Assembly: GCA_029860345.1 (NCBI GenBank)
Contig: JAOUBJ010000007.1
Coordinates: 124,001 to 188,000 of the forward strand
Source of the DNA: Candidatus Zixiibacteriota bacterium
GTDB lineage: Bacteria > Zixibacteria > MSB-5A5 > GN15 > FEB-12
Direction of reading: 5' to 3'
DNA length: 64,000 nt
Notes under the pieces: model-generated
What the model was told of the DNA's origin: nothing
The model's database searches: none
Seen by the model: only the letters and a program-made list of their open reading frames with translations
In this document: positions 12,688 through 36,688 of the stretch, piece after piece
Layout of the letters: each line of letters begins with the position of its first letter
Position numbering within the stretch: position 1 is the stretch's first letter
Translations under genes and position numbers: made by a program

Positions 12688-15600
12688 TTGGAGCACTCTG
12701 ATACAAATAAATCGCGGTACTACCTGAATGAAGATGGTGAGTTTATCATCACCGATTATAACTCATCAAAACCGTTTTCAAGTTTTTTCCCCGGCATTGC
12801 CGGAGTGAACGGAATTCCCATGTGGGTTTTCTACGTAAACCGTGGGCAGTGTATCTCCAGCATGGGGATTCAGGACAAAGACCATTCCATCATGGAGTTC
12901 CTGCCGGCAAACTGGGCCTATAATCTGGTAGCCAGACAAGGCTTCAGAACATTTATCAAGCTATCCGATGATTCGTCATGCAGCTATTATGAGCCGTTCC
13001 AGAGTCACTATATTGATAGGCAGCTGAAACGAACTCAGCGAATGATTATTGCACCATCGCATTTAACACTTGAAGAGGTCAATCATTCACTGAATCTGAA
13101 ATTCTCGGTCGAGTATTTCACCGTCCCCCAAGACAATTACGCCGGTCTTGTACGAACGCTGCGCATTGACAATTTGGGCCCCGACTCGGTCGCTTTGGAC
13201 GGACTGGACGGGTTACCCTTGATTGTTCCGTATGGTGTTGATAATTTTTGTCTGAAGAATATGAGACGAACAATCGAGGCTTTTGTCGAAGTCAGCAATT
13301 TTTGTGAAAAGGTACCCTTCTTCAGGAGTAAAGTGGAGCCGGACGATCGAGCCGATGTCATGCGGATTACGAGGGGGAACTTCTATGTCGGTTTTGAAAC
13401 AGACGGATCAGATACAAATATAATCGCACCAATTGTCGACCCGACCAGAATCTTCGGGACCCAAAGCGACCTGAGTTATCCTAAGAGATTTCTGGCGGTG
13501 TCAGCGGAAGAGGTTTTCAACGATCAAATCCTGGAAAACCAACTCCCATGTGCTATGGGCCTATTTCGTGCCACAATCCCGGCGGGGGAGAGTTACACTT
13601 ACACTTCGATCATTGGCCATGCTTCATCCATTCAGGAATTGAACGGGATGGTTCCACATATTGCCAGTCGAGATTACGCAGAATCAAAAGCACAAACAAA
13701 TCAGGAGATCGTACAGACACTGACTCAGAATAATCTAATCTGTAGCAGTGAACCTACGCTGGATCACTATGTCAGGCAGAATTTCCTGGACAATGTCATG
13801 AGGGGTGGCCTTCCCTATACGATAGATGGAGATAAGGCCCGTTCAACGCTTTATCTGTATTCTCGCAAGCATGGCGATATGGAAAGAGATTACAATGACT
13901 TTCGTCTCATGCCAACTTATTACTCACAGGGAAACGGGAATTTCCGTGACATTAACCAAAATCGCCGCTCCGATGTGCTGTTTAATCCGGATATTCAAGA
14001 ATACAATGTGGAATACTTCTATAACCTGATCCAACTTGACGGTTTCAATCCGCTTGTTTTAGGAGAGATCTACTTCGCAGTTGGGGACAGGGACAAATTG
14101 TACTCTATCTTAGAGAAGTTCATAGAGGCCGAACATGTACAAACTGTCAAGTCCTTCTTCGATGAGTCCTTTACTCCTGGGGAATTGTTAGTATTCCTCG
14201 ATGAGCAGGATATTGCGCTTGGCGCCGACTCGGAGATATTTCTCGGAGAGATTCTCGACCATTGCCGCAGAATCTGTGACCCCGACCATGGCGAAGGTTT
14301 TTGGACCGATCACTGGACTTACAATCTGGATCTATTGGAAAACTACTTAGCCGTTTATCCGGACAAATTCCCAAATCTGCTGTTTTGGAAGAAGACGTTT
14401 TCTTTTTATGATAATCCGCATCGCGTGCTGCCCCGCGAAGATAAATATGTTCTTTGGGAACAGAATGCGATGCAACTCGGCGCCGTGGTCCTGGACGAGG
14501 AAAAAGAAAGACTGATTGAGAATCGGGATCAGAATCCTAATCAGGTTCGCATCCAATCGGGCACGGGTGACGTCTACTACACATCACTGTTCAATAAGAT
14601 ACTGTGTCTGATAGTCAATAAGCTGGCTTCTCTGGATCCCGAAGGAGTCGGTGTGGAAATGGAAGCTGGAAAACCAAGCTGGTATGACGCACTTAATGGA
14701 TTACCTGGTTTATTCGGATCGAGTATTAGCGAATCGCTGGAGATCAAGCGGCACATTCTGTTTCTTATAGACAAGCTTCATGAGTCGAAGATTGATATTG
14801 AGGAGATAGCTATCTTCGAGGAGTTGAGTGAGTTCATGGAGACAGTACATGACATTCTCACACGTAACCTCTCACCATTCGAGTTCTGGGACAGCGCTTC
14901 AACAGCCAAAGAACATTACCGTGAGAAGATAAGAATGGGGATTAGCGGAAAAGAGACAACGGTCGAGTTTGTCAGGATTAGAGATTTCTTCGCGGCTGCT
15001 CTGGGCAAATTGAACGAAGGTATTGAAAAAGCACGAGATCAGGAAAGTAATACTCTATTCACGTATTTTTGTTATGATGTGACTGGTTACCAGATGTTGG
15101 AGACCACAGATTCTCACGGTGAGAAGAAGCCGAAATACAATGCCAATGGGCAACCGTGTATAAAGGCTTTGGAATTCAAACAAGTCGCATTGCCTCTGTT
15201 TCTGGAAGGGCCGGTGCATTATCTGAAGTGTCTCACTGATATGAAAGAGGCTAAGGAATTTGCTGCAAGTGTCAAGGCGAGTGGATTATATGATAGTCCT
15301 TTGAAGATGTACAAAGTCAATGCATCACTGTCGGACCAGCCGTTGGAGATTGGGCGCGCCAGAGTTTTTTCACCTGGTTGGCTGGAAAATGAATCAATCT
15401 GGCTTCACATGGAATACAAATATCTGCTTGAACTGTTGCGCGCCGGGCTCTACTCTGAGTTCTTTCAGGAGTTCAAGAACGTATGCATACCGTTCTTGAA
15501 TCCGGATGTATATGGCAGGTCTCTTTTGGAAAACTCGTCTTTCATTGTCAGCAGTGCCCACCCCGACCAGTCAATCCATGGAAACGGTTTTGTGGCACGA

Positions 15601-16014
15601 TTAAGCGGGGCGACTGCCGAGTTCATTCACATCGTGCAACTGATGGCAGTAGGTCCCCGGCCTTTCCGGCTCAGCCCCAAAGGAGAGCTGCAACTTGGTC
15701 TCAACCTTTCCCTGCCTGGGTGGCTTTTCACTCAAGAAACGCGAAAGATAAGACTGTTCAGACAGAATCAATGGCAAGAAGTTGAACTGCCGGCCAGAAC
15801 CTTCACCTTTATGTTTCTTGGTAAAATCCTGGTCACCTACCACAACATCGAACTGAAAGACACATACGGTGCGGCCGGAGTGACACCTGCCGAATGGAGA
15901 ATAGCAGATAAAAGTGGGATTATTCAAACATTCAACACCGAGACCTTGAGCGGAGAAATAGCCTATAACATTCGTGAAAGAAAGGTCGACAAAATAGACA
16001 TAGTGCTCCGTTAA
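12688..16014 (+). CDS. Cytoplasmic beta-glucan phosphorylase (GH94/GH149/GH161 type)
   Basis: This is a 1108-residue protein with no signal peptide. The N-terminal YYLNEDGEFIITDYNSSKPF and FFPGIAGVNGIPMWVFYVNR segments resemble cellobiose-phosphorylase relatives. The length and these motifs fit the long beta-1,3-glucan phosphorylases of GH149 or GH161 better than GH94, which is nearer 800 residues. A likely catalytic acid is the Asp in GFWTDHWTYNLDLL at about residue 535. Phosphorylases of this kind release glucose 1-phosphate from oligosaccharides inside the cell. The start is TTG with GAGAGG eight bases upstream; no ATG fits better. The surrounding GH16, GH17 and GH3 genes favour laminari-oligosaccharides as substrate. 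The family assignment is from memory of motifs and needs an HMM search. Confidence 0.7.
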   Translation: MEHSDTNKSRYYLNEDGEFIITDYNSSKPFSSFFPGIAGVNGIPMWVFYVNRGQCISSMGIQDKDHSIMEFLPANWAYNLVARQGFRTFIKLSDDSSCSYYEPFQSHYIDRQLKRTQRMIIAPSHLTLEEVNHSLNLKFSVEYFTVPQDNYAGLVRTLRIDNLGPDSVALDGLDGLPLIVPYGVDNFCLKNMRRTIEAFVEVSNFCEKVPFFRSKVEPDDRADVMRITRGNFYVGFETDGSDTNIIAPIVDPTRIFGTQSDLSYPKRFLAVSAEEVFNDQILENQLPCAMGLFRATIPAGESYTYTSIIGHASSIQELNGMVPHIASRDYAESKAQTNQEIVQTLTQNNLICSSEPTLDHYVRQNFLDNVMRGGLPYTIDGDKARSTLYLYSRKHGDMERDYNDFRLMPTYYSQGNGNFRDINQNRRSDVLFNPDIQEYNVEYFYNLIQLDGFNPLVLGEIYFAVGDRDKLYSILEKFIEAEHVQTVKSFFDESFTPGELLVFLDEQDIALGADSEIFLGEILDHCRRICDPDHGEGFWTDHWTYNLDLLENYLAVYPDKFPNLLFWKKTFSFYDNPHRVLPREDKYVLWEQNAMQLGAVVLDEEKERLIENRDQNPNQVRIQSGTGDVYYTSLFNKILCLIVNKLASLDPEGVGVEMEAGKPSWYDALNGLPGLFGSSISESLEIKRHILFLIDKLHESKIDIEEIAIFEELSEFMETVHDILTRNLSPFEFWDSASTAKEHYREKIRMGISGKETTVEFVRIRDFFAAALGKLNEGIEKARDQESNTLFTYFCYDVTGYQMLETTDSHGEKKPKYNANGQPCIKALEFKQVALPLFLEGPVHYLKCLTDMKEAKEFAASVKASGLYDSPLKMYKVNASLSDQPLEIGRARVFSPGWLENESIWLHMEYKYLLELLRAGLYSEFFQEFKNVCIPFLNPDVYGRSLLENSSFIVSSAHPDQSIHGNGFVARLSGATAEFIHIVQLMAVGPRPFRLSPKGELQLGLNLSLPGWLFTQETRKIRLFRQNQWQEVELPARTFTFMFLGKILVTYHNIELKDTYGAAGVTPAEWRIADKSGIIQTFNTETLSGEIAYNIRERKVDKIDIVLR

Positions 16015-16203: not shown

Positions 16204-17325
16204 GTGAATTTCATTACAAACGTTGTTTTGCGTTTTCCCGTAATCGCTGCAATGATTTTGCTCGCTTGCAACCAGAATGAGTCGAACGCAGATCACAAAG
16301 AACCGCAGTCAGTCATGACAAAGCTCATAACCGAACTGGAATCCGGCCTTTCACAAAAGAGGGAAGAGCCATTTGAAATACGTTCTTTCAAACCGTATCT
16401 GGGAGATGTTTGGATAGGGAATGCTGTCGCGTATGGTTGCTATCGGGCCGGTCAGGCTCCGGGACAGAAGGGCCCCGCCGATGAAGAAATTCTGGAAGAC
16501 CTGAACATCATGGCTAAACATTGGAATCTGATAAGGGTCTATGGTGCGGACCGTGATACCAAGCGCATCCTTCGACTGATCGAGACTCACAAACTGCCTA
16601 TCAAGGTGATCCAGGGTATCTGGTTGGAGCCGGAAGAAAACGATCCCGAAAAGAAGAAATCTAACATTGAGCAGGTTACCCTTGGTGTCGAACTGGCAAA
16701 TGAGTATCCAGATATCGTAGTCGCCATAAGTGTGGCCAATGAAACGCAGGTGTTCTGGTCAGGGCATAAGATGAATCCCGAAATCCTGATACGATATACC
16801 CGTGCCGTTCGAAGCAATGTCTCTGTGCCGGTGACGACAGCTGATGACTACCTCTATTGGAACAAGCCTGAAAGTAAACAGGTGGCTGACGAAATCGACT
16901 TTGTCTTTACTCATATACACCCCCTGTGGAACGGAAAGTCGCTGGAGGATGGCATCAGTTGGATGGACGGGGTTTATCATGAACTTCAGGAAGTGCATCC
17001 CGACCGTATGATTGTACTCGGCGAGACCGGCTGGGCCACCGATTACAATGCCAACAAGACCGGACCCGGTGAGCAAGGCACACTGATAAAAGGGAAAGTC
17101 GACATAGCCGCCCAAGCCACGTTCCTGATCCAAATGAACCAGTGGATCGAGTCAAATCAGGTTACTACCTTCCTTTTTGAAGCCTTCGACGAATCCTGGA
17201 AAGGTGGCGGCGAGGATTCCCCGCCAAATGAGGTTGAAAAGCATTGGGGAGTCTATAACGAGGATCGTACTCCGAAAGAGTCATTTCTCAAGTCTCTGCC
17301 GCATCACCGCAAGGTTTTGGATTAG
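16204..17325 (+). CDS. GH17-like glucanase or glucanosyltransferase lipoprotein
   Basis: The 373-residue protein starts with GTG and has a lipobox (LLAC, Cys22), so it is lipid-anchored. The mature domain is a beta/alpha barrel of the GH17 kind. It has the first-strand region around VAYGCYRAGQ, NLIRVYGADRDT, the acid/base Glu180 in SVANET and the nucleophile Glu274 in LGETGWATD. GH17 members cut or rearrange beta-1,3-glucans. The barrel is slightly longer than average, and a YNANKTGPGEQGT loop after the nucleophile is not familiar. It sits 190 bases after the phosphorylase gene, so it may be the last gene of that operon. Endo-glucanase versus transferase activity cannot be told from sequence. 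Confidence 0.78.
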   Translation: MNFITNVVLRFPVIAAMILLACNQNESNADHKEPQSVMTKLITELESGLSQKREEPFEIRSFKPYLGDVWIGNAVAYGCYRAGQAPGQKGPADEEILEDLNIMAKHWNLIRVYGADRDTKRILRLIETHKLPIKVIQGIWLEPEENDPEKKKSNIEQVTLGVELANEYPDIVVAISVANETQVFWSGHKMNPEILIRYTRAVRSNVSVPVTTADDYLYWNKPESKQVADEIDFVFTHIHPLWNGKSLEDGISWMDGVYHELQEVHPDRMIVLGETGWATDYNANKTGPGEQGTLIKGKVDIAAQATFLIQMNQWIESNQVTTFLFEAFDESWKGGGEDSPPNEVEKHWGVYNEDRTPKESFLKSLPHHRKVLD

Positions 17326-17659: not shown

Positions 17660-17708
17660 TTGACAAAATCCGGATTATCTTTTACTTTGTTCGGGAGTCG
17701 AACAAAGT
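17660..17708 (+). promoter_or_regulatory. Promoter with overlapping 25-base palindromic operator
   Basis: TTGACA at 17660-17665, a 17-base spacer and TACTTT at 17683-17688 form a good sigma-70-type promoter. The -10 overlaps a perfect inverted repeat: ACTTTGTTCG (17684-17693), GGAGT, CGAACAAAGT (17699-17708). A repressor bound here would block RNA polymerase. The same arrangement occurs on the minus strand at 36736-36784. The ROK regulator in this operon is the likely ligand-controlled binder (inference). Confidence 0.85.
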
Positions 17709-17780: not shown

Positions 17781-20198
17781 ATGTTCATGCGGACTTCCGT
17801 TCACATTTTGGCGGTGGTTGCGATTATTGTGATGATAGGACTGCTTGGCTGCAGCGACGACAACGGCGTGGGCCCGGCACCGTTCCCGACCCAGAGCGAG
17901 GTGTTCATTGATGAATTCGGCAACAGTGTCACATTCGAGGCGTTTCTTGGTTCTAAGCTTGACGCTGTCCAAATAGATCAAACAGGTTATCAAAGCTCAC
18001 GATCATTGATCGTCACAGTTCCCGATTCCGGTGATGCTTCGGGTAGTTATGCAGGTGGAGCTTTTACTGCCAATGTTGCTCGCGATCTGACTGATTACAA
18101 CGCTCTGACATTCTGGGCAAAAGCCAGTACCGCCGCAACATTGGACGTTGCTGGTATTGGTAACGACAACACAGGAACGTCGAAGTACACCGCCGAAGTT
18201 ACGAATCTGGCTATAACAACCGGCTGGCAGAAATACACAATTCCGATTCCTCTTTCTGAAAAGTTGGATGCCGAACAGGGTCTTTTCTATTTTGCTGAAG
18301 GCCCGGAAGGTGGCGTTGGAAACACAATCTGGTTTGACGAAGTACAATTTGCCCAGCTTTCAACAATTACCAATCCTCGTCCTGCTTTGACCAGCCGGAC
18401 TATTGATGTTGAATCAGGTGAAACCGTTGATGTTGGCAATGCCATTGTAACATTCGATGTTGACGGTACAGATATTAATGTCAGCGCCATGCCGGGATAT
18501 TTTACATTCACCTCATCGAATACCGGGGTCGTTTCTGTTGACGCCGATGGTGTCATTTCCGGTGCCGGAGTAGGTGATGCTACTTTAACTGCCACATTAG
18601 GTACCGTAGCTGCCACAGGTTCCATTACAGTCAATGTAAACACACCGCAGGCTGTTCCTTCTACAGCAGCTCCTACCCCGACGGTGGACGCTGCCGATGT
18701 GATTTCATTGTTCAGCAACGCCTACACTGACGAAACGGTTAATCTGTGGTCAACGGATTGGGATGATACCGACCTTGAGGATATCACGATCGGTTCTGAC
18801 GATATCAAGAAATACTATAATCTGTCATTTGCAGGCGTTGATTTTTCAGACCCAACAATTGACGTGTCATCAATGACCCGTTTTCACATGGATGTATGGA
18901 CACCGGTCCCGACTGATGCTCCGGCGGAGTTTACAATCAAGCTGGTCGATTTCGGCGCCGACGGTGCCTTTGGTGGGGGTGACGATCGTGAGCATGAACT
19001 TGCATTCGATGAAAACACTATGTCTTCTGAAAGCTGGGTGAGTATAGACGTTCCTCTTCTGGCCTTCTCCGGATTAACTACTAAAGGGCATCTCGCTCAG
19101 ATGATAATCTCCGGTGATCTCGGAACGGTTTACATAGACAATATTTATTTCTACGACGCCGGTCCCCAAACAGCGCCGACAGTTCCAGCACCGACACCTA
19201 CAGTTGGCGCTGCTAATGTCATCTCTCTTTTCAGCGATGCCTACACCGACGTGCCGGTTGATACCTGGTCGGCGGTCTATGATGTCGCCGATGTTGAAGA
19301 ATATGCGATCGGTTCTGATAACACGAAAAAATACAGTAACCTTCTCTTTGCAGGCATAGAGTTTCTTACTACCACGGTTGATGCTTCTGCGCTGACTCAT
19401 TTCCATATTGATGTCTGGACAGCCGATGCAACAGCTTCGCCGGCCCTGTTCAAAATCAAGCTGGTTGATCTTGGAGCCAATGGAGTCTATGGTGGTGGTG
19501 ACGATGTTGAACATGAAGTCACTTTAGATCACAACACTATGAACACCGGCATCTGGGTAAGCATAGATATTCCTCTGTCCAGTTTCAGCGGTCTAACCAC
19601 AAGAGGACAACTTGGTCAGTTGATTATTTCTGGAAATCCAAACACTGTATTCGTTGACAATATCTACTTCTATGATTCAGGTATCCCGACTATCCCGCTG
19701 GTTCCGGCACCGACACCCACACTTGATGCTGCCGATGTTGTTTCGTTGTTCAGCGATGCCTACACCGACGTGCCTGTTGATACCTGGTCGGCTGCCTGGG
19801 ACAGCGCAACAGTCGAAGACTTTATGATTGGGTCTGATGCCACCAAAAAATACAGTTACCTTCTTTTTGCCGGCATAGAGTTCAAGACTACTACGATTGA
19901 TGCTTCTGCGATGACTCATCTCTATATGAATGTATGGACACCAGATGCGACAGCTTCACCGTCAGTACTCAAAATCAAACTGGTCGATTTTGGAGCCAAT
20001 GGTGTTTGGGATGGGGGTGACGATGTCGAACATGAAATCACTTTAGATGAAAGCAGCATGAATACCAGCAGTTGGGTGACTCTTGATATACCCTTGAGTG
20101 ACTTCGTTGATTTGACAACAAAAGGACACCTGGCTCAGTTAATCATCTCAGGCGATCCAAACACCCTATATGTTGACAATATATATCTCCATAAGTGA
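17781..20198 (+). CDS. Lipoprotein with three carbohydrate-binding-like modules
   Basis: The 805-residue lipoprotein (lipobox LLGC, AAGGAGG site five bases before the ATG) has these parts in order. A galactose-binding-like domain with a DEFGNSVTFEAFLGSKLDAV start covers about 35-190. A bacterial Ig-like (Big_2 type) domain covers about 195-290 (VVSVDADGVISGAGVGDATL). Three repeats of about 165 residues follow, each with a VISLFS.AYTD start, a (T/S)HFHMDVWTP-type core and an end like LAQLIISGDPNT(V/L)YVDN. The repeat is a predicted beta-sandwich like modules attached to laminarinases in other bacteria. It has no catalytic domain, so it is probably a surface glucan-binding protein, perhaps doing the SusD/SusE/SusF job. 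First gene of the operon. Confidence 0.75.
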   Translation: MFMRTSVHILAVVAIIVMIGLLGCSDDNGVGPAPFPTQSEVFIDEFGNSVTFEAFLGSKLDAVQIDQTGYQSSRSLIVTVPDSGDASGSYAGGAFTANVARDLTDYNALTFWAKASTAATLDVAGIGNDNTGTSKYTAEVTNLAITTGWQKYTIPIPLSEKLDAEQGLFYFAEGPEGGVGNTIWFDEVQFAQLSTITNPRPALTSRTIDVESGETVDVGNAIVTFDVDGTDINVSAMPGYFTFTSSNTGVVSVDADGVISGAGVGDATLTATLGTVAATGSITVNVNTPQAVPSTAAPTPTVDAADVISLFSNAYTDETVNLWSTDWDDTDLEDITIGSDDIKKYYNLSFAGVDFSDPTIDVSSMTRFHMDVWTPVPTDAPAEFTIKLVDFGADGAFGGGDDREHELAFDENTMSSESWVSIDVPLLAFSGLTTKGHLAQMIISGDLGTVYIDNIYFYDAGPQTAPTVPAPTPTVGAANVISLFSDAYTDVPVDTWSAVYDVADVEEYAIGSDNTKKYSNLLFAGIEFLTTTVDASALTHFHIDVWTADATASPALFKIKLVDLGANGVYGGGDDVEHEVTLDHNTMNTGIWVSIDIPLSSFSGLTTRGQLGQLIISGNPNTVFVDNIYFYDSGIPTIPLVPAPTPTLDAADVVSLFSDAYTDVPVDTWSAAWDSATVEDFMIGSDATKKYSYLLFAGIEFKTTTIDASAMTHLYMNVWTPDATASPSVLKIKLVDFGANGVWDGGDDVEHEITLDESSMNTSSWVTLDIPLSDFVDLTTKGHLAQLIISGDPNTLYVDNIYLHK

Positions 20199-20235
20199 CA
20201 TGACAGGATTAGACCATAGACGGAGGTGACAATGA

Positions 20236-20316
20236 ATGAATGTACTATCGGGTCGGAATGACTCACATCCTGAAGAACGTACACTTACCGATTCGGTACT
20301 ACGTAGGATTAGGTAA
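20236..20316 (+). pseudogene. Remnant of a ROK regulator gene (first 26 codons)
   Basis: An ATG with GGAGG nine bases upstream opens a 26-codon frame ending in TAA. Its product aligns without gaps to the first 26 residues of the ROK protein at 27629 (shared E14-R15, L17, V21, R23) and more closely to the 59-codon frame at 24566 (14 of 26 identical, both starting MNVLS). It is a truncated copy of the ROK gene start, left between two array genes. Whether it is still translated is unknown; its stop is 30 bases before the next start. Confidence 0.65.
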
Positions 20317-20346
20317 TCAACGAAGTAATTGGAGAGAGAAGAAAAG

Positions 20347-23300
20347 ATGAGACACTTACAATGCGTTTTAGCCCTTTGTTTACTGCTACTCTCGAGCAAT
20401 CTCTTTGAGGCGAATGCTTCTCCTGCAGAATCATGCTGTATAGGGATCAGAGGTAATGTAGATAATTCAGTGGCCCAAGATGCTGACATTTCAGATTTAG
20501 TCTATTTGGTCGACTTTATGTTCACCGGTGGTCCCCCGCCGCCGTGTTTCGACGAAGCTGATATGGATGCTAGCGGAAGTATTGATATTTCCGACTTGGT
20601 TTACCTGGTCGACTTCATGTTCACCGGAGGTCCTCCGCCCCTCGAATGCACGTCGAGTGCTGTATTCATTGATGAATACGACGCTGGTGTAACTTATGAA
20701 GCTTTTCTCGGGTCCTATCTTGAGGCGGTTCAGGTTGATGCAGATAGTATGTATGCCGGCACTCAGGGCTTGGTAGTATCGATACCGGATGCTAACTGGG
20801 CCGGAGGGGCATTTACCGACTCTACGCCTCGTGACCTCTGGGAATACAACGCCCTTACTTTCTATGCCAAAGCAAGCGCCGAAGCAACCCTGGATGTAGC
20901 TGGCCTTGGGAATGACAATACCGGGACATCAAAATACACGGCCGAAGTAACAGGTCTCGCTCTTACTACAGAATGGCAGAAACTCATCATCCCGATCCCG
21001 GATCCTTCCAAACTAACCGCCGAGCAGGGACTGTTCTATTTTGCCGAAGGAAATGAAGGCGGTGAAGGATATCAGGTTTGGATGGATGAGATTGCGTTTG
21101 AAAATCTGCCCATAACCAACCCTCGTCCCGTAATCCCAACCATCACGCTCAATGTGACACTGGGTGGCGACATCGTGATTGAAGGTGGAACTTGCACCTT
21201 TGATGTTGGCGGTGGAGTTGATGTTGAAGTTAGCACCATGATGGGCTATTTCAATTTTACGTCCTCGGATGAAGCAGTTGTTACCGTTGGTGGCGACGGT
21301 GTTATCTCCGCAGTTGGCGCCGGAACGGCAGAATTGACTGCCGAACTCGGTAATGGTGGTGCTAAGGCTGCTATTCCTGCCCTCGGTACTGTTACGGTGG
21401 TCGTCAGTCCTCCCGAACCTGAACCGTCAACACCTGCCCCGACGCCGACGGTTGCCTCTGACAGTGTTGTCTCTCTTTACAGCGAAGCCTACACTAACGA
21501 AACGGTCAATACCTGGTCGGCGGCATGGGATGATGCCGATGTTGCAACCTATATGATCGGCGCCGACAGTACGAAGAAATACACCAACCTCGTCTTTGCC
21601 GGGATAGAGTTTACGAGCCCGACCGTTGATGTTTCTGCGATGGACCATTTCCATATTGATGTCTGGACCCCGAACCCATCGGGAACTCCGAATCTGTTCA
21701 AAGTCAAACTTGTCTCCTTCGGTGCTGACGGCGCCTGGGGTGGTGGCGACGATACCGAACATGAGCTATCTTTTGACGAGAGCACAATGTCATCTGAAGC
21801 CTGGGTCGGCATAGATGTGCCTCTGGCCAGTTTCAGCGGACTGGCGGAAACCGCTCACATGGCTCAGATGGTTATTTCGACTGACCCAACAACAGCCTAC
21901 AATACCGTATACTTGGACAACATCTACTTCTACGACTCCGGCCTCCCCTCAGAGCCGGAAGTTGCAGCTCCCTCCCCGACCGTCAATCCTGACTACGTTG
22001 TGTCGCTCTATAGTGATGCCTACGCCAGTGCGACCATTGACACCTGGTCGGCTGTCTGGGATCAGGCCGATGTGTCTGATTTTGTGGTCGATGCTGATAA
22101 CTCCAAGCATTACACCAACCTTGTCTTTGCCGGCGTAGAGTTTACATCCAGTCCGGTCGATGCTTCCGCGATGACTCGCTTCCACATGGACGTCTGGACA
22201 CCGGTCCCGACCGGCGCCCCGGCTCTCTACAAAGTCAAGCTGGTCGATTTCGGCGCCGATGGTGCCTACGGCGGCGGCGACGATGTCGAACACGAGTTGT
22301 CTTTTGACGAGACCACTATGAACAGCCACGAGTGGGTTAGTATCGATATCCCACTTACCGATTTCACCAATCTGACAACGACCGGCGCTCTTGCCCAGAT
22401 GATAATCTCAGGTGATCTGGGTGAGATCTATGTCGACAATATTTACTTCTGGACGCCTCCTCCGACCGAACCGCAAGAGGCGGCCCCGACACCGACTGAG
22501 GATGCCGGCGATGTAGTGTCACTCTTGAGCGATGCTTACACCAACCATCCGGTTGATACCTGGTCGGCCGGTTGGGATCAGGCCGATGTCTCAGACTTCG
22601 TGGTCGATGCCGACAGCTCCAAGCATTACACTAACCTCGTGTTTGCCGGTGTTGAGTTCACCACGACCACGCTCGATGCATCAAGTATGGATCGGTTCCA
22701 CATGGATGTATGGACACCAAACCCGACCGGTGCTCCGGCTGTCTACAAAGTCAAACTGGTAGACTTCGGCGCCGATGGTGCCTGGGGCGGTGGTGACGAT
22801 GTTGAGCACGAGTTGTCCTTCGACGAAACCACCATGAGCAGCCACAGCTGGGTTTCCATCGATATCCCGCTCACCGACTTCACAGGTTTGGTTACAACCG
22901 GTCACCTGGCTCAGATGATAATCTCAGGTGACATGTCAGAGGTCTGGGTAGACAATATTTACGTCTACACTACCGCCGGTCCGCCGACCGAACCGACAAC
23001 ATCAGCACCGACGCCGACTCAGGATGCCGGTGATGTTTTCTCTGTATTCAGTGATACTTACACAAGCACAGAGTTTGACGTTTGGTCACCTGGCTGGGAT
23101 ATGGGCGATGTTGTTGCCTTTACCATCGCTGCTGATAATCTCAAGAAATACACCAACTGGGGTTATGTCTTGTCTGAATATTCAGTAGGCGTAACGGGCC
23201 CTCAGGATATCAGTTCTATGACTCATTTCCACATGGACGTCTGGACACCGGATGCTACCGATGGATCTTCTGAGTTTAAGATCAAACTGGTAGACTTTGG

Positions 23301-24531
23301 TGCCGATGGTAATCCCGGCGGTGGAGATGATTCTGAACATGAGTTGACTCTTGGTGATGCTACAATGAGTACCGGCAGCTGGGTAAGCCTTGATATAGCA
23401 CTGGCTGACTTTAGTGGTATGACTGGAACAGGAAACTTCGCTCAGATGATCCTCTCCGGTACATACAGTACTTTCTTCATAGATAATCTGTATTTCTACG
23501 TGACTGCTGCTACCGAACCACAAGAAGCGGCTCCGACACCTGACTACGGTTCCGGAAGTGTTGTTGCTCTGTACAGTGATGCCTACACCAACCATCCGGT
23601 CGACACCTGGTCGGCTGGTTGGGATGTGGCTGATGTAGCAGACTTTGTGGTCGATGCGGACAGCTCGAAGCAATATACCAACCTCGTCTTTGCCGGTATT
23701 GAGTTCACGACTACCACGCTTGATGCATCTTCGATGGACCGCTTCCACATGGATGTATGGACTCCTGATGCAACACCGGGCGGCCAACTGTACCGAGTCA
23801 AACTGGTTGACTTCGGTGGTGATGGCGCCTGGGGTGGTGGTGATGACGTTGAACATGAGCTGGTTTTTGATGAGACCACGATGAGCACCGGTGGCTGGGT
23901 CGGCATCGATGTCCCGCTTTCCGACTTCACCGGTCTGACAACGACCGGTCATCTGGCTCAGATGATTATCGCCAGCGATTCTCTGAGTACAGTGTTCATG
24001 GATAATGTCTACTTCTATTCGACCGCTCCGCTCAGTGCGGCTACGACGCCGACACTTCCAAGTGGCGACGTCATTTCTCTCTACAGCGACGCCTACACCG
24101 ACGTGACGGTAGATACCTGGTCGGCTGGTTGGGATGCTGCCGACGTTGCAGACGTACTGGTTGGTTCCGACAACGCGAAACTGTACACCAACCTCTCGTT
24201 TGCCGGGATAGAGTTTACATCATCCACGATTGATGCTGACTCGATGACTCACTTCCATATCGATGTCTGGACTCCCGATGCTACAGGTGCACCTGCTGTC
24301 TTCATGATCAAACTTGTTGATTTCGGTGGTGACGGTGCCTGGGGTGGTGGCGATGACGTTGAACATGAGTTGACTCTTACCGAGAGCACCATGGACAGTG
24401 GCGGCTGGGTGAGTATTGAACTTGCCCTGTCAGCTTTCACCGGTCTGGTGACTAAGGGCCATCTGGCTCAGATGATCATCTCGGGTGATCCCAATACCAT
24501 GTGGGTTGATAATGTGTATCTACACAAGTAG
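20347..24531 (+). CDS. Giant secreted protein with dockerin motifs and six binding-like modules
   Basis: The 1394-residue protein has a signal peptide ending near ANA and two dockerin-like motifs at about 40-85 (DISDLVYLVDFMFTGG twice). A galactose-binding-like domain (about 100-250), a Big_2-like domain (about 255-355) and six copies of the ~165-residue sandwich module fill the rest. The fourth copy is the most diverged (DVWSPGWDMGDVVAF). The ATG at 20347 follows GGAGAGAG; an upstream TTG in frame is not needed. No enzyme domain is present. Compared with the GH16 gene downstream it looks like the same architecture with the GH16 domain lost and the array extended. Likely role: glucan binding or display at the surface. 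Confidence 0.78.
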   Translation: MRHLQCVLALCLLLLSSNLFEANASPAESCCIGIRGNVDNSVAQDADISDLVYLVDFMFTGGPPPPCFDEADMDASGSIDISDLVYLVDFMFTGGPPPLECTSSAVFIDEYDAGVTYEAFLGSYLEAVQVDADSMYAGTQGLVVSIPDANWAGGAFTDSTPRDLWEYNALTFYAKASAEATLDVAGLGNDNTGTSKYTAEVTGLALTTEWQKLIIPIPDPSKLTAEQGLFYFAEGNEGGEGYQVWMDEIAFENLPITNPRPVIPTITLNVTLGGDIVIEGGTCTFDVGGGVDVEVSTMMGYFNFTSSDEAVVTVGGDGVISAVGAGTAELTAELGNGGAKAAIPALGTVTVVVSPPEPEPSTPAPTPTVASDSVVSLYSEAYTNETVNTWSAAWDDADVATYMIGADSTKKYTNLVFAGIEFTSPTVDVSAMDHFHIDVWTPNPSGTPNLFKVKLVSFGADGAWGGGDDTEHELSFDESTMSSEAWVGIDVPLASFSGLAETAHMAQMVISTDPTTAYNTVYLDNIYFYDSGLPSEPEVAAPSPTVNPDYVVSLYSDAYASATIDTWSAVWDQADVSDFVVDADNSKHYTNLVFAGVEFTSSPVDASAMTRFHMDVWTPVPTGAPALYKVKLVDFGADGAYGGGDDVEHELSFDETTMNSHEWVSIDIPLTDFTNLTTTGALAQMIISGDLGEIYVDNIYFWTPPPTEPQEAAPTPTEDAGDVVSLLSDAYTNHPVDTWSAGWDQADVSDFVVDADSSKHYTNLVFAGVEFTTTTLDASSMDRFHMDVWTPNPTGAPAVYKVKLVDFGADGAWGGGDDVEHELSFDETTMSSHSWVSIDIPLTDFTGLVTTGHLAQMIISGDMSEVWVDNIYVYTTAGPPTEPTTSAPTPTQDAGDVFSVFSDTYTSTEFDVWSPGWDMGDVVAFTIAADNLKKYTNWGYVLSEYSVGVTGPQDISSMTHFHMDVWTPDATDGSSEFKIKLVDFGADGNPGGGDDSEHELTLGDATMSTGSWVSLDIALADFSGMTGTGNFAQMILSGTYSTFFIDNLYFYVTAATEPQEAAPTPDYGSGSVVALYSDAYTNHPVDTWSAGWDVADVADFVVDADSSKQYTNLVFAGIEFTTTTLDASSMDRFHMDVWTPDATPGGQLYRVKLVDFGGDGAWGGGDDVEHELVFDETTMSTGGWVGIDVPLSDFTGLTTTGHLAQMIIASDSLSTVFMDNVYFYSTAPLSAATTPTLPSGDVISLYSDAYTDVTVDTWSAGWDAADVADVLVGSDNAKLYTNLSFAGIEFTSSTIDADSMTHFHIDVWTPDATGAPAVFMIKLVDFGGDGAWGGGDDVEHELTLTESTMDSGGWVSIELALSAFTGLVTKGHLAQMIISGDPNTMWVDNVYLHK

Positions 24532-24565: not shown

Positions 24566-24745
24566 GTGAATGTACTATCGGATCGGAATAACTTAGGTTC
24601 CCAAGAACGACCTTTGGCCGATCCGGTAGTACGTCTCATCTGGCGGGAGAAGCAGGCGACTCCTGTGGACGATTCCCGGCAGGTGGGACTGTCCCGTTCT
24701 ATCGTCTCAGAGCCAACGAATAACCTTCTAAAAATGAACTTGTAA
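24566..24745 (+). CDS. Mini-ROK: 59-residue truncated regulator ORF
   Basis: A GTG with CGGAG seven bases upstream opens 59 codons with no internal stop. The product aligns without any gap to residues 1-59 of the ROK protein at 27629, with about 30 identities, including ERPLA, WREK, GLSRS and VSE of the helix-turn-helix. Many codon differences are synonymous (for example in the ERPL, RL.WREK and LSRS stretches), so it evolved as coding sequence for some time. The recognition helix is damaged (a Pro after VSE, and Asp/Ser in the first helix), so DNA binding is doubtful. Its TAA overlaps the ATG of the GH16 gene (TAATG), so it may now serve translation of that gene. Too short for ordinary gene calling. 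Confidence 0.55.
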   Translation: MNVLSDRNNLGSQERPLADPVVRLIWREKQATPVDDSRQVGLSRSIVSEPTNNLLKMNL

Positions 24746-27594
24746 TGCTTTGCCGTATCCTGAGGCTAATCTTCCTGTCGGCCTCTTTTGCGATCTTAAT
24801 GTCCAATAACGGTTATTCCAGTCCATCTGATTCATCCGGGACCTGGACGTTGGTCTGGAACGATGAATTCGGCGGTACGGCCGGAGAGTCGCCCGATGCT
24901 GGTAACTGGGGATATGATATAGGGACCGACTGGGGCAATGCGCAGCTTGAATACGACACCGACCGTCCTTCTAATGTGTCTTTGGATGGAAACGGAAATC
25001 TCGCCATTATCGCCCGTGAAGAATCCTATATGGGTCGGCAGTATACGTCGGCAAGGATAGTGACAAGGGGTCTGTATGAACCGACTTACGGCAGAGTCGA
25101 GGCTCGTATCAATCTTCCAACCGGACAGGGTATCTGGCCCGCATTCTGGATGCTCGGCAGTGACTTCACCACAGTTGGCTGGCCCCAGTGTGGCGAGATT
25201 GATATCATGGAATATCTCGGACATCAGACAAATACGGTTTATGGTACTATTCACGGTCCCGGTGCTTATGGCGGAGGTGGTGTTGGAACGTCGTATGTTT
25301 TGGAGGACGGACAGTTCGATACCGACTTTCATGTTTTCGCGGTGGAATGGGAAGAAGACGTGATCAGGTGGTATGTGGACGACGTCAATTATTATACAGT
25401 CACTCCGGACAGTCTCGGCGGCAACGAATGGGTGTTTGACCACCCGTTCTACATTATTCTGAATGTAGCAGTCGGCGGTAACTGGCCCGGACCTCCCGAT
25501 GGTTCGACGGTTTTCCCTCAGACAATGCTCGTCGATTATGTCAGAGTTTACCAAAGGGGTTCATCTGCAGAATCATGCTGTCGAGGTTTCACAGGCAATG
25601 TTGACAATTCACCGAGCGAAACAGTTGATATTACTGACCTGGTTTATATGGTCGATTATATGTTTTCAGGAGGCTCACCCCCACCTTGCATGCAAGAAGT
25701 CGATATGGACGGGAGTCCGGGGATTGACATTGGTGACCTGGTCTATCTTGTCGACTACATGTTTACCGGTGGTCCTTTGCCTCTCGAATGTCCAGCCCCG
25801 CTGGATTTTGTATTCACGGATGAATTCCACGGTACGGTATTTTATCAGGCATTCCTCGGTTCCAAACTGGACGCCGTTCAGATCGATCAGACTATTATGT
25901 ATGCAGGCACACAGGGGTTGGTAGTAACCGTTCCGGATGTTGGAGACCCATCCGGAAATTATGCCGGGGGGGCATTTACGACCTCCATAGCCTTTGACTT
26001 AACAAAGTATAACGCACTTACATTCTGGGCGAAAGCGAGTACAGCCGCAACACTGGATATCGCCGGGATCGGCAATGATAATACCGGAACATCAGAATAC
26101 ACAGTCGATGTGAATGACCTTGCACTTACGACAACATGGCAAAAATACATCATTCCCTTCCCCCTTGCCGAGAAGTTAGACAATGAGCAAGGACTTTTCT
26201 ACTTTGCCGAAGGACCGGAAAACGGTAGCGGGTATCAGATTTGGATGGATGAAATTATCTTCGAAGACCTGGCGACCATAACCAACCCGCGTCCCGCCTT
26301 GAACTCACAGACAGTTGACGTGGAATCCGGTGATACTATCTTTGTCGATTACGGTACGGCTACTTTCGACGTTGACGGCACTGATTTAGATGTGAGCTTT
26401 ATGCCGGGATATTTCAGCTTCTTATCTTCAGATGAACTTGTGGTATCGGTCGGTGTCGATGGAACTATCACAGCCGTTGGAATCGGCACTGCAACCATAA
26501 CAGCAACTCTCGGCGCCACGGCTGCTACCGGGACGATTACAGTCAATGTAAACGCACCTCCAGACGAACCGGCAACATCAGCCCCGACGCCGACAGTTGA
26601 TGCCGGCAGTGTAATCTCCCTTTTCAGTGATGCCTACACCGATGTGACCGTTGATACCTGGTCGGCTCCGTGGGACCAGGCTGATGTCGAAGATTTTATG
26701 ATCGGTCCTGATGCCACGAAGAAGTACACTAACCTTGTCTTTGCCGGTATAGAGTTTACATCTACTACGGTTGATGTCTCTGCGATGACCCATTTCCACA
26801 TGGATGTATGGACCCCGGACAACACCAATGCGCCTTCGGTGTTCAAAGTTAAGCTGGTAGACTTTGGTGCCAATGGTGTTTGGAGCGGCGGCGATGATGT
26901 TGAGCACGAAATAACCCTTAACGAATCTACTATGAACACCGGAAGCTGGGTAAGTATTGATCTTGCTTTAACAGATTTCACTAACCTGACAACCAAAGAG
27001 CATCTGGCTCAGTTACTCATCTCGGGTGATCCAAATACAGTTTATGTGGATAATATTTACTTCTATGATGCCGGTTCTCCCACAGCTCCGACAGTTGCGG
27101 CTCCGACGCCGACAGTTGGTGCTGCCGATGTTATATCCTTGTTCAGCGATGCCTACACCGATGTGCCGGTAGACACTTGGTCGGCTGTCTGGGATGTTGC
27201 CGATGTTGAGGACTATGCAATCGGTTCTGACAACACCAAGAAATACACCAACCTTGTTTACGCCGGTATAGAGTTCAAGACTACTACCGTTGATGCATCG
27301 GCCATGACTCATTTTCACATGGATTTATGGACGCCGGACCCAACTATGTCTCCAGCGGTTTTCAATATCAAGCTGGTCGACTTTGGCGCCAATGGAGTTT
27401 GGGATGGTGGTGGTGACGATGTCGAACATGAGTTGTCTCTTGACCACAATACAATGAATACCGGTAGCTGGGTTAGTATTGAACTTGCTCTGTCGGATTT
27501 CACCGGTCTGACGACCAGAGCACATTTGGCTCAGTTGATAATTTCGGGTAATCCCAATACTGTATATGTTGATAATGTCTACTTTCATAAGTAA
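24745..27594 (+). CDS. Secreted GH16 laminarinase with dockerin and two binding-like modules
   Basis: The 949-residue protein has a signal peptide ending near GYS, then a GH16 catalytic domain at about 30-270. The E-x-D-x-x-E signature is intact (Glu151, Asp153, Glu156 in GEIDIMEY), with GQGIWPAFWML and FHVFAVEW flanking it, as in beta-1,3-glucanases (laminarinases). Two dockerin-like motifs (ITDLVYMVDYMF, IGDLVYLVDYMF), the galactose-binding-like domain, a Big_2-like domain and two ~165-residue modules follow. It should cut laminarin outside the cell or on its surface. Its start codon overlaps the stop of the mini-ROK frame. The catalytic domain is highly similar to the small GH16 lipoprotein at 28855, which points to duplication. 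Confidence 0.92.
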   Translation: MLCRILRLIFLSASFAILMSNNGYSSPSDSSGTWTLVWNDEFGGTAGESPDAGNWGYDIGTDWGNAQLEYDTDRPSNVSLDGNGNLAIIAREESYMGRQYTSARIVTRGLYEPTYGRVEARINLPTGQGIWPAFWMLGSDFTTVGWPQCGEIDIMEYLGHQTNTVYGTIHGPGAYGGGGVGTSYVLEDGQFDTDFHVFAVEWEEDVIRWYVDDVNYYTVTPDSLGGNEWVFDHPFYIILNVAVGGNWPGPPDGSTVFPQTMLVDYVRVYQRGSSAESCCRGFTGNVDNSPSETVDITDLVYMVDYMFSGGSPPPCMQEVDMDGSPGIDIGDLVYLVDYMFTGGPLPLECPAPLDFVFTDEFHGTVFYQAFLGSKLDAVQIDQTIMYAGTQGLVVTVPDVGDPSGNYAGGAFTTSIAFDLTKYNALTFWAKASTAATLDIAGIGNDNTGTSEYTVDVNDLALTTTWQKYIIPFPLAEKLDNEQGLFYFAEGPENGSGYQIWMDEIIFEDLATITNPRPALNSQTVDVESGDTIFVDYGTATFDVDGTDLDVSFMPGYFSFLSSDELVVSVGVDGTITAVGIGTATITATLGATAATGTITVNVNAPPDEPATSAPTPTVDAGSVISLFSDAYTDVTVDTWSAPWDQADVEDFMIGPDATKKYTNLVFAGIEFTSTTVDVSAMTHFHMDVWTPDNTNAPSVFKVKLVDFGANGVWSGGDDVEHEITLNESTMNTGSWVSIDLALTDFTNLTTKEHLAQLLISGDPNTVYVDNIYFYDAGSPTAPTVAAPTPTVGAADVISLFSDAYTDVPVDTWSAVWDVADVEDYAIGSDNTKKYTNLVYAGIEFKTTTVDASAMTHFHMDLWTPDPTMSPAVFNIKLVDFGANGVWDGGGDDVEHELSLDHNTMNTGSWVSIELALSDFTGLTTRAHLAQLIISGNPNTVYVDNVYFHK

Positions 27595-27628: not shown

Positions 27629-28858
27629 ATGTGCTCACAATCAGATAAAAACAACACGCCTCCCAAAGAGCGACCCCTGGCCAATTCGGTTCGCCGTCTG
27701 GTCTGGCGCGAAAAGAGAACAACCAGAGCTGAGATTGCACGGTTGACCGGGCTGTCTCGTTCTACAGTTTCCGAGATTGTTGACAGTCTGCTAACCACCG
27801 GGCTCATAGAAGAGATCGGTGCCGGCAAGTCAAGCGGCGGTCGGCGTCCGATCGTACTTGAGTTTCAGGATGAAGCCAGGTGTATCCTGGGTGTAGATCT
27901 GGGAGCTACTCACGTAGGGGTAGTTCTGACCGATCTTCGAGGCAACGTCCTGGCCTGGAAGGAGCGCCGCCATCCGGTGAGATCCGATCCCAAGGGTTCC
28001 CGAGAACTGGTCATCGCCCTGTGTGACGAGTGCCTGAATGAGAGTGGCAAGGATAAGGGATCGCTCTTGAGTATCGGGGTAGCGGTGCCCAGTCCGGTAG
28101 ATCCTCTTAACCCAAAACTTCTTTCGGAAGTAGTGATTCCCGCCTGGCGTGGAGAAAGCGGACTGGAGCAACTTCAGCAATATTACGGCGTCAAGGTCCA
28201 TGTCGACAACGACGCCAATTTGGGCGCGGTGGCTGAAAATTGGTGGGGGGCTGGTCAAGGGATTGAGGATCTCGTATACATTAAGGTCGCACATGGAATC
28301 GGCGCCGGCTACATCCTGAATGGAGACGTATATCGTGGCGCCGCAGGCGTAGCAGGTGAGATGGGCCACCTGCCTATCGATCCAAACGGCTCCCCTTGCG
28401 TCTGCGGTCTCAAGGGCTGCCTGGCAACATTAGTCGGAGCGCCGGCGGTATCAGAGCGTGCGCGTGAATTGGCAGGGGATTATCCCGACAGTTGCCTCAA
28501 GATCAATTCTGCACCTTTCTCAGACTTGAGGGTAGCTGTAGAGCAGGGCGACGCACTCGCAACTCGACTTGTGGATGAAATCACCGATTATCTGGCCATT
28601 GCGATTGCAGGCTGGTTCAATCTCATGAATCCCAAACTCGCAATTCTGGGCGGAAGTATGGCCAGTCTCGGTGAATTCGTTGTGGGTCCTCTGAGGGAAA
28701 AGGTCAGGGGCAATACTCTGGTAAGCAAAGCGGCGGTGAGTATCAGGATCGGCGAACTCGGCCCGAGAGCGGTTGCAGTCGGTGCGGCAACACTGGCCCT
28801 GCAGGCGATGTTTTCAGATCCTCAACCGGTTGGTAGCAGTGAGCAGCCAAGGACATGA
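27629..28858 (+). CDS. ROK-family transcriptional repressor
   Basis: The 409-residue protein has an N-terminal winged helix-turn-helix at about 25-75 (AEIARLTGLSRSTVSEIVDS) and a ROK sugar-kinase-like domain. The first glycine-rich loop is GVDLGATHVGVVLTD, followed by DNDANLGAV, the GEMGHLPID motif and a zinc site CVCGLKGC. ROK repressors of the NagC/XylR type leave DNA when a sugar or sugar phosphate binds. It lies inside the glucan operon and its stop overlaps the next start (ATGATG). It is the best candidate for the palindromes at 17684 and 36736. Its own ribosome binding site is weak (AACGGC), weaker than those kept by the two truncated copies upstream. Confidence 0.92.
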   Translation: MCSQSDKNNTPPKERPLANSVRRLVWREKRTTRAEIARLTGLSRSTVSEIVDSLLTTGLIEEIGAGKSSGGRRPIVLEFQDEARCILGVDLGATHVGVVLTDLRGNVLAWKERRHPVRSDPKGSRELVIALCDECLNESGKDKGSLLSIGVAVPSPVDPLNPKLLSEVVIPAWRGESGLEQLQQYYGVKVHVDNDANLGAVAENWWGAGQGIEDLVYIKVAHGIGAGYILNGDVYRGAAGVAGEMGHLPIDPNGSPCVCGLKGCLATLVGAPAVSERARELAGDYPDSCLKINSAPFSDLRVAVEQGDALATRLVDEITDYLAIAIAGWFNLMNPKLAILGGSMASLGEFVVGPLREKVRGNTLVSKAAVSIRIGELGPRAVAVGAATLALQAMFSDPQPVGSSEQPRT

Positions 28859-29676
28859 TGCGCTGGCGGACGCTAACAAATACTGTTCATATAATCTCGA
28901 TCGTTGCCACTTTGGTGTTGAACGGATGCAGCAACTCTACAGATTCGAAAATGATATACCGCTTAGTATGGAACGATGAATTTGACGGACCGGTGGGCCA
29001 AAAGCTCGGCTCCGACAAATGGGGCTACGATGTCGGTACCGACTGGGGTAACGCTCAACTTGAGTACGATACCGACCGAGCTGAGAATGTCTCCCTGGAT
29101 GGAAACGGCAATCTAGCCATTGTCGCCCGCAAGGAGTCCTATCAGGGACAACCATACACCTCGGCTCGGATCGTGACACGGGATTTGTTCGAACCAAAGT
29201 ACGGCAGGATTGAGGCCCGAATCAAACTCCCGACCGGTCAGGGTATCTGGCCGGCTTTCTGGATGCTGGGTAATGACATCAAAACCGTTAGCTGGCCCCA
29301 ATGCGGCGAGATAGACATTATGGAATATCGTGGTCAGCATTCGCATGTCATCCACGGCAGTCTGCATGGCCCAGGCTACGCCGGGGGACGCGCCCTGTCT
29401 CGCAGTTACACGCTTGATGGAGCAGGATTCGATACCGACTTTCACGTTTTTGCGGTTGAATGGACCCGGGGGAGGATCGATTGGCACGTGGATGGTAGTC
29501 ACTACCTGACTATCCTGCCGGAGCATGCCAATGGTGATTGGGTGTTTGATCACCCGTTCTATATTATTCTGAATGTGGCTGTAGGTGGCCACTGGGTCGG
29601 ACCGCCCAACGAAAACACTGTTTTCCCGCAAACAATGTTGATTGACTACGTTCGAGTATACGCTGGAGAGTCATGA
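28855..29676 (+). CDS. GH16 laminarinase lipoprotein
   Basis: The 273-residue protein has a lipoprotein signal (LVLNGC) and a single GH16 domain. The catalytic signature is intact: Glu152, Asp154 and Glu157 in GEIDIMEY. It is close to the catalytic domain at 24745 throughout (shared GTDWGNAQLEYDTDR, SLDGNGNLAI, LPTGQGIWPAFWML), but has no dockerin or binding modules. It starts inside the ROK stop codon, so it is translationally coupled. As a lipid-anchored enzyme it would cut glucan fragments at the cell envelope, after longer pieces are made by the modular enzyme. Confidence 0.92.
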   Translation: MMRWRTLTNTVHIISIVATLVLNGCSNSTDSKMIYRLVWNDEFDGPVGQKLGSDKWGYDVGTDWGNAQLEYDTDRAENVSLDGNGNLAIVARKESYQGQPYTSARIVTRDLFEPKYGRIEARIKLPTGQGIWPAFWMLGNDIKTVSWPQCGEIDIMEYRGQHSHVIHGSLHGPGYAGGRALSRSYTLDGAGFDTDFHVFAVEWTRGRIDWHVDGSHYLTILPEHANGDWVFDHPFYIILNVAVGGHWVGPPNENTVFPQTMLIDYVRVYAGES

Positions 29677-29719
29677 TCACTCACGGCCTTCTGCGTGACA
29701 ACCCCTTTGAGGAGTTTTG

Positions 29720-31192
29720 ATGAACCCATCGCAGCACTTTGAAACTGCTCCGGAAGACCGGATTTCCCTCGCACAAAGACTGGTCTATGGCCTCGGCGGA
29801 TTGATAAACAACTTACTGGCCGCTGCCAGTGGCGGTATGATGATTGTTCTCAATCTCGGCCTCGGCATGAATCCCGCCCTCGTCGGTCTGCTGGGAGCGC
29901 TGCCTCGTTTCACCGATGCGCTGACGGACCCGATGATGGGATTTATTTCCGACCGCACCAAGTCAAGATGGGGAAGGCGTCGGCCATACATCTTTTGTGG
30001 CGCCATAGCCGCCGGTCTGATATTTGCCGCGCTGTGGCAATTACCGAGAGGGCAGAGCGAGACTTTCTACTTTATCTGGTTCCTTGCCGGTTCGATTCTT
30101 TTCTACATGGGATATACCGTGTTTGCCACTCCCTGGGTTGCCTTGGGGTATGAGTTGACGCCAGATTATCACGAGCGCACTCGTCTCATGGGTACGCAGA
30201 ACTTCCTCAGCCAACTCGCCTACGTGGTATCACCCTGGTTTTTGTGGATAATGACTTACCAGGGTTGGTTCAAAGATCAGATCGACGGCGCCGCCGGCCT
30301 GGCCATCATCATCGCCGCGGTGACTATTGGAGTTGGTATCCTACCTGCCATCTTTCTCAGAGAGCGTCTCAAAGGGATCGCTGTGGCCGAGATTACCGCT
30401 GAGGGTCAGAAATCCCAGAGTACCGCTGCCGCCTTCAAGCGAAATATTATCGAGTTCTTCAAAGGGTTTGCCGCTACTATAAAGTCGGGACCGTTTTTGA
30501 AACTCGGCCTGGCGACCTTTTTAGTTTTCAATGGCTTCATTCTGATAGCCGCCTTTCAGTCCTACGTGACTATTTATTACGTCTGTGGCGGGGATCAGAA
30601 TTTGGGTGCGGAATACGTAGGGTACACCGGAAGCGTCGCTGCGGTTTCCACCTTTATCGTTATTCCCATCGTAACATGGCTCGCTACCAAGATTGGTAAA
30701 CGGCGCGCCTTCTTCTACTCGACCGGCATCTCCATGGTCGGCTATGCTGTAAAATGGATCTGTTACAATCCTGAAATTCCCTGGCTGGTCGTGGTCCCGG
30801 CGCCGCTGCTTGCTTTCAGTCTGGGGGGTTTGTTCACGCTGATGCCTTCGATGATGGCCGATGTTGTTGATCTCGATGAACTCGAAACTCACGAACGCCG
30901 CGAGGGGATGTTCGGCTCCATATTCTGGTGGGTTGTAAAACTCGGAATGTCAGCCGCTCTGGCCGGTGGCGGATTCTTGCTCAACGCTAGTGGCTTCGAT
31001 GTTGAGCTGGGGGAAAGTCAGACCGTTAGTGCCCTCTTCTTGATGCGGATTTTTGACGTCGTTATCCCAATTGTGACATCAGCGATTGCGATCTGGGCAG
31101 TGGCCACATTCCCGATTACCGAAAAGAAAGCGCGCGAAGTAAGAGAAGAGTTGGAACGCAGAAGAGGCAAGGGGAACGAAGTAGCATCGTAA
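29720..31192 (+). CDS. GPH-family sugar:cation symporter
   Basis: The 490-residue protein has about 12 hydrophobic segments and the loop motif TDPMMGFISDRTKSRWGRRR of the glycoside-pentoside-hexuronide (MelB-like) family of the major facilitator superfamily. The ATG at 29720 has GAGGAG upstream; a TTG one codon earlier is less likely. It is the last gene of the plus-strand operon, 43 bases after the GH16 lipoprotein. It should carry mono- or oligosaccharides, here probably laminari-oligosaccharides or glucose, across the inner membrane for the GH3 and the phosphorylase. Confidence 0.9.
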   Translation: MNPSQHFETAPEDRISLAQRLVYGLGGLINNLLAAASGGMMIVLNLGLGMNPALVGLLGALPRFTDALTDPMMGFISDRTKSRWGRRRPYIFCGAIAAGLIFAALWQLPRGQSETFYFIWFLAGSILFYMGYTVFATPWVALGYELTPDYHERTRLMGTQNFLSQLAYVVSPWFLWIMTYQGWFKDQIDGAAGLAIIIAAVTIGVGILPAIFLRERLKGIAVAEITAEGQKSQSTAAAFKRNIIEFFKGFAATIKSGPFLKLGLATFLVFNGFILIAAFQSYVTIYYVCGGDQNLGAEYVGYTGSVAAVSTFIVIPIVTWLATKIGKRRAFFYSTGISMVGYAVKWICYNPEIPWLVVVPAPLLAFSLGGLFTLMPSMMADVVDLDELETHERREGMFGSIFWWVVKLGMSAALAGGGFLLNASGFDVELGESQTVSALFLMRIFDVVIPIVTSAIAIWAVATFPITEKKAREVREELERRRGKGNEVAS

Positions 31193-36670: not shown

Positions 36671-36688
36671 CTTTGTTAGCGAACAAAA
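36671..36688 (-). promoter_or_regulatory. Partial operator-like site in the leader
   Basis: On the minus strand this reads ATTTTGTTCG (9 of 10 match to the operator arm) followed by an AACAAAG at a shorter spacing than in the full operators. It lies about 25-40 bases before the start codon of the barrel-fusion gene. It may be an auxiliary half-site or chance. Confidence 0.35.

Follow-up and report, generated by a model that had tools for sequence, protein, structure and literature searches.

An N-terminal winged helix-turn-helix (HTH) distinguishes the regulators of the ROK family from the ROK kinases. The ROK regulator BglR of Thermotoga maritima, which responds to cellobiose and glucose, controls a laminarinase and a beta-glucosidase (PMC3750489). 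XylR of Paenibacillus polymyxa, also a ROK protein, binds a 25-bp site, ACTTAGTTT-AAGCAAT-AGACAAAGT (PMC9104551). For NagR of Bifidobacterium, a repressor, 10 of 11 operators overlap the -10 or the -35, and its regulon was inferred by footprinting and later proved by knockout and gel shift (PMC9599254); among ROK proteins as a whole, both repression and activation are on record (PMC9599254).

We compared with these systems a beta-1,3-glucan locus in a 64-kb window (the whole stretch of DNA that was analysed). Judged by the description of the system, the locus resembles that of BglR, whose gene sits in the operon of its laminarinase and beta-glucosidase targets, whereas BglR is accompanied by ABC transporters and the window by MFS and porin-like proteins. 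Its candidate operators resemble those of Paenibacillus/Bacillus XylR, which are 25-bp inverted repeats on sugar promoters with nearly the same outer arms (ACTTWGTT / ACAAAGT), but the inner bases differ (TTT-N7-A in XylR, TTC-N7-G here), and XylR serves xylose genes in Firmicutes. Palindromic operators on the -10 or -35 are shared with NagR, which in contrast answers to other sugars, controls other genes and has a larger regulon (11 operators). By sequence, the closest full-length solved regulator is Lmo0178 of Listeria (PDB 5f7p/5f7q/5f7r), which likewise joins an HTH to a ROK domain but is a distant homologue with another regulon. The kind of switch that we propose is thus already known, in that it would work like BglR or the Bacillus-type XylR; what we describe is an apparently undescribed and testable beta-1,3-glucan regulon in groups for which genetic tools are scarce or lacking (Zixibacteria, Gemmatimonadota, Krumholzibacteria, Neomarinimicrobiota and Ignavibacteria). 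A literature search on ROK together with Gemmatimonadetes found nothing, and the matches listed for the ten-base arm were unrelated by title.

Two promoter-operator units and the genes behind them

The promoters, candidate operators and genes of the locus are as follows.

17660-17688, plus strand: promoter P1, with TTGACA at 17660-17665, a 17-bp spacer at 17666-17682 and TACTTT at 17683-17688
17684-17708, plus strand: candidate operator O1, ACTTTGTTCG-GGAGT-CGAACAAAGT, a perfect 10-5-10 palindrome
17781-20198, plus strand: lipoprotein-like repeat protein of 805 aa, first gene of the P1 operon, with homologues that follow the box in most related loci
20329-24531, plus strand: second repeat protein, 1400 aa, P1 operon
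24578-24740, plus strand: decayed copy of the ROK winged-HTH region, ending in TAA, directly before the first GH16 gene
24745-27594, plus strand: GH16 protein of 949 aa, P1 operon
27629-28858, plus strand: ROK regulator with an N-terminal winged HTH and a ROK sugar-kinase-like domain, P1 operon, the proposed autoregulated repressor
28855-29676, plus strand: GH16 beta-glucanase of 273 aa, P1 operon
29717-31192, plus strand: MFS_2 sugar transporter (by family match), last gene of the P1 operon
31267-33471, minus strand: GH3 beta-glucosidase, second gene of the P2 operon after a 14-bp gap
33486-36647, minus strand: GH158-like TIM barrel with a predicted outer-membrane beta-barrel (by model), 1053 aa, first gene of the P2 operon
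36736-36760, minus strand: candidate operator O2, ACTTTGTTCG-GTAAG-AGAACAAAGT, with one arm mismatch
36756-36784, minus strand: promoter P2, with TTGACA at 36784-36779, a 17-bp spacer and TACTTT at 36761-36756

O1 overlaps both the -10 of P1 and the expected start point, its left arm carrying the -10 such that the first base of the box is the second base of TACTTT. A preliminary description had reported this perfect 10-5-10 palindrome on the -10 of TTGACA-N17-TACTTT at 17660-17708, and the recurrence of the unit on the opposite strand at 36736-36784 before the other glucan operon; both can be read directly. The identical spacing reported for the two units also holds, and the promoter spacers, the box centres and the leaders all differ between P1 and P2. 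The box sequences had been called identical, which needs correction, since O2 has an A for C at the inner position of the right arm (1 of 20 arm bases), leaving 9 of 10 arm pairs matched. As for the 'strong promoter' of that description, the perfect -35 and the conservation in relatives bear it out, but the -10 does not: TACTTT agrees with TATAAT at only 3 of 6 positions, for which reason a generic promoter scan of the window reported neither P1 nor P2. A Bacteroidota-type -10 (TAnnTTTG) was weighed by eye, and TACTTTG falls one base short of it.

When up to 3 mismatches were allowed, the box pattern occurred in the window only at O1 and O2 (0 matches in 100 dinucleotide shuffles), and no third site was present in the 4.76 Mb genome. 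The genome-wide motif search, which the preliminary description had named as a check, therefore rules out a scattered or global motif, as there are two sites only, each before a glucan operon. Separately, we noticed at 36671-36687 (minus strand), immediately upstream of the P2 gene's start codon, a pair of box arms without a spacer, TTTGTTCGCTAACAAAG, with an expectation of 0.02 in shuffles when up to 2 mismatches are allowed; it may be a secondary site or a relic. Similar CTTTGTYCGCYAA stretches lie downstream of the P1 box in the related loci L055 and L056.

The two repeat proteins (17781-24531) are built from a unit of ~130 aa with a GGGDD-EHEL motif and have no Pfam or NCBIfam match; the unit is possibly a glucan-binding module. 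In one genome (G052), the GH158-like protein carries a single unit of this kind, fused N-terminally. The decayed HTH copy at 24578-24740 retains 52% identity to ROK residues 5-60 and contains an internal stop, suggesting a past tandem duplication of a ROK-GH16 pair. The neighbourhood also contains a GH17 gene (16204-17325) and a protein (12688-16014) that matches a GH149 beta-1,3-glucan phosphorylase model well under the model cut-off. Overall, the locus looks dedicated to beta-1,3-glucan of the laminarin type.

The ROK protein and its box across phyla

The ROK protein matches PF00480 over residues 87-392 (E 3.9e-54) and, over residues 25-62, the HTH_24 and HTH_IclR families above cut-off, the latter region aligning with the HTH of Lmo0178 and Mlc. 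We searched it for the zinc motif CxCGxxGC and the sugar-site motifs DND and ExGH: residues N194-D195, E244, G246-H247 and the zinc motif C257xCGxxGC264 are invariant in three aligned orthologues, and sugar sensing is therefore plausible. The recognition region SRSTV(S/T)E is kept, as the box is, in the orthologues in which it was printed. Scores against the NCBIfam equivalog models fell short for both NagC (181.7/650 bits) and Mlc (132.3/530 bits). As claimed earlier, ROK is the only DNA-binding protein of the locus, as far as Pfam detects such families in the genes at 16.2-43.1 kb of the window, and it is the only regulator in the gene set common to the box loci.

ROK orthologues were collected from genome contigs by short conserved peptides, that is, by protein only, a procedure that misses more distant ones. 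It returned 37 loci (49-69% identity) from Zixibacteria, Neomarinimicrobiota, Ignavibacteria, Bacteroidota, Gemmatimonadota and Krumholzibacteria, together with single bins labelled Planctomycetota and Myxococcota, labels that can be wrong. The box (up to 4 mismatches) was present in 34 of the 37, compared with ~1 in shuffled DNA of equal size, and the three loci without it start close to a contig end. Behind the boxes lie two sets of genes, one consisting of a repeat protein (or a GH16 or GH158-like gene), ROK, GH16 and MFS, and the other of a GH158-like gene, often with GH3. As in a BglR-type regulon, then, the genes with a box in front include those for GH16, GH158-like and GH3 enzymes as well as the rok operon; five Zixibacteria species, and several loci from other phyla, have a box before each of the two operons.

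Among 46 boxes at up to 2 mismatches, window included, TTGAC lies 17-21 bp upstream of CTTTG in 43, placing the box on the -10 in nearly all cases, and all 10 Zixibacteria boxes have TTGACA-N17-TACTTT. The gap between the -35 and the box is 19 bp in Zixibacteria, 20 bp in Ignavibacteria and most Neomarinimicrobiota, and 21 bp at the main promoters of most Gemmatimonadota and Krumholzibacteria, which rules out a fixed register of operator and promoter. At a constant 17-bp spacing, the -10 would read TACTTT, TATCTT/ATACTT or CATACT across these lineages; the match to TATAAT is best at this spacing, by a modest signal (mean 2.69/6 vs. 1.6-2.2 elsewhere). Of 45 cases, 27 have a TA adjoining the box towards the promoter and 11 have one at the opposite edge, a bias that is expected if the TA serves the -10. 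These comparisons of sequence suggest two distinct elements, a promoter and an operator, that overlap and have slipped by up to 2 bp relative to each other.

Most of 22 host genomes contain 1-3 boxes, and in a few the count reaches up to six. Glucan genes follow several of the boxes outside the ROK locus, namely GH16 with CBM6 (L117), a GH158-like gene (L119), MFS and GH17 (L121), GH158-like and GH3 genes (L125), a second ROK-GH16 operon (L120) and a run with GH1 and GH158-like genes (L116). Five others (L114, L115, L122, L124 and L126) have no evident link to glucan genes, and those with two mismatches may be chance; L124 and L126, with two mismatches and lying inside or beside unrelated ORFs, were taken as such. 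The box CTTTGTTCG-N5-CGAACAAAG has the specificity needed to mark such genes in whole genomes, some of them outside the main locus.

Next, we scanned whole genomes with a pattern scan blind to the protein and a protein scan blind to the box. Among 132 Zixibacteria genomes, the box (up to 1 mismatch) was found in five, two per genome, and in none of the other 127, and a ROK orthologue (E up to 1e-55) in exactly those five; two congeners of box-bearing Zixibacteria (G053 and G091) have neither. Of 298 Gemmatimonadota genomes, sampled around G152, 36 had both, 3 had the box only, 5 had ROK only and 254 had neither, so that 36 of the 39 box-bearing genomes have the ROK orthologue (Fisher p ~2e-37 with shared ancestry ignored, the independent events being fewer than the genomes). 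The reversed pattern, our control, matched in one Gemmatimonadota genome, and incomplete bins may lie behind the genomes with one partner only. The sites are rare, have a characteristic geometry on the promoters and, across phyla, are inherited together with ROK and the same glucan genes. The earlier proposal of one regulator, the ROK protein at 27629, gains strong comparative support from these distributions. Two Gemmatimonadota genomes (G217 and G305) have 12 and 13 boxes, respectively, and their regulon seems greatly expanded.

A proposed repressor and the competing readings

We conclude, with a probability of about 0.9, that the ROK protein at 27629-28858 has its operators in O1 and O2 and would act as an autoregulated, sugar-released repressor of P1 and P2. 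By analogy with the described ROK regulators, binding to O1 and O2, repression and an effector are inferred for this protein: a ROK dimer would set one winged HTH on each ACTTTGTTCG arm and, once bound, would cover the -10 and the start point, leaving RNA polymerase unable to open P1 or P2. Since the rok gene is in the P1 operon, the regulator would set its own synthesis. Breakdown of beta-1,3-glucan would yield a sugar product that binds the sugar-kinase-like domain (glucose, laminaribiose or a relative, its identity being a guess), upon which sugar-bound ROK would leave both operators and the P1 and P2 operons would be induced together. Besides P1, internal promoters could also drive the MFS transporter and the ROK gene.

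The box might instead be read by a different DNA-binding protein encoded elsewhere, with ROK controlling something else or only sensing the sugar, and the 8 of 298 Gemmatimonadota genomes with one partner only would fit such an arrangement. We consider it unlikely, because box and ROK are distributed alike in two phyla, the box matches a known ROK operator (that of P. polymyxa XylR) in length and outer arms, and ROK stands alone as a regulator both in the locus by Pfam and in the shared gene set. Similarly unlikely is that ROK binds the box as an activator. Some ROK proteins do activate (PMC9599254 records both modes), and a -10 that matches TATAAT poorly is often found in activator-dependent promoters; the -35 is perfect, however, the site covers the -10 and the expected start in nearly all 46 boxes, where bound protein blocks polymerase, and for the ROK proteins NagR and Caldicellulosiruptor bescii XylR, operators so placed are interpreted as sites of repression.

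A palindrome in this position could also work as RNA, forming an attenuator or terminator hairpin in the leader, and a terminator scan did mark O2 as terminator-like (a 9-pair stem, then CTTGTTTTTC). With the -10 in the left arm, transcription is expected to start near the box centre (~17695), inside the palindrome, so that the RNA would be without the left arm; a T-run is missing after O1 and most other boxes, and we rejected this very improbable reading. Least credible of all is that P1 and P2 are merely a recent duplication of one promoter region, devoid of regulatory meaning. The two units do have the -35, the -10 and the box in common, and duplication did happen nearby (the ROK HTH remnant and the two GH16 genes), but their promoter spacers, box centres and leaders are unlike, and the presence of boxes at both operons in five Zixibacteria species and several other-phylum loci indicates that the pair is old and selected.

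The second target and the history of the module

The first gene of the P2 operon encodes a 1053-aa protein that we modelled from 14 orthologues at low confidence (mean pLDDT 64.8, pTM 0.48). In this low-confidence model, residues ~35-390 best match GH158 laminarinases (9p26, Z 17.6, rmsd 3.0 over 201 residues; BuGH158 6pal, Z 16.1) and residues ~450-912 match OprD/Occ- and AlgE-kind porins (Z ~15, rmsd 3.9-6.3); modelled strands continue past ~912 to the C-terminus, giving a barrel of ~450-1052. It is reasonable, as far as the model goes, to regard the product as a laminarinase fused to an outer-membrane porin, and the box flags this unusual predicted fusion as a core target. Orthologues in other phyla have 53-71% identity, and a literature search combining GH158, porin and laminarin found nothing.

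In the ROK tree, the window protein groups with L055 and L056, Zixibacteria of another family (support 100/99), and not with L057 and L058 of its own family, and among six other genomes of its genus a ROK orthologue was found in 0/6 and the box in 0/6. This pattern of sequences fits horizontal spread of the module; differential loss could also account for it. More tentatively, at somewhat less than even odds, we envisage that regulator, operator and promoter move between phyla as one compact beta-1,3-glucan module, the operator sliding by 0-2 bp against the promoter, and that this module controls a laminarinase-porin fusion responsible for the cutting and uptake at the cell surface that SusC/SusD systems perform elsewhere. 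In the window, MFS transporter and GH3 beta-glucosidase are encoded by two convergent genes, while in L057 (6224-9559), L058 (12128-15457), L060 (12211-15516) and L072 (12168-15491) the pair forms a single open frame of ~1100 aa, as read for G051.
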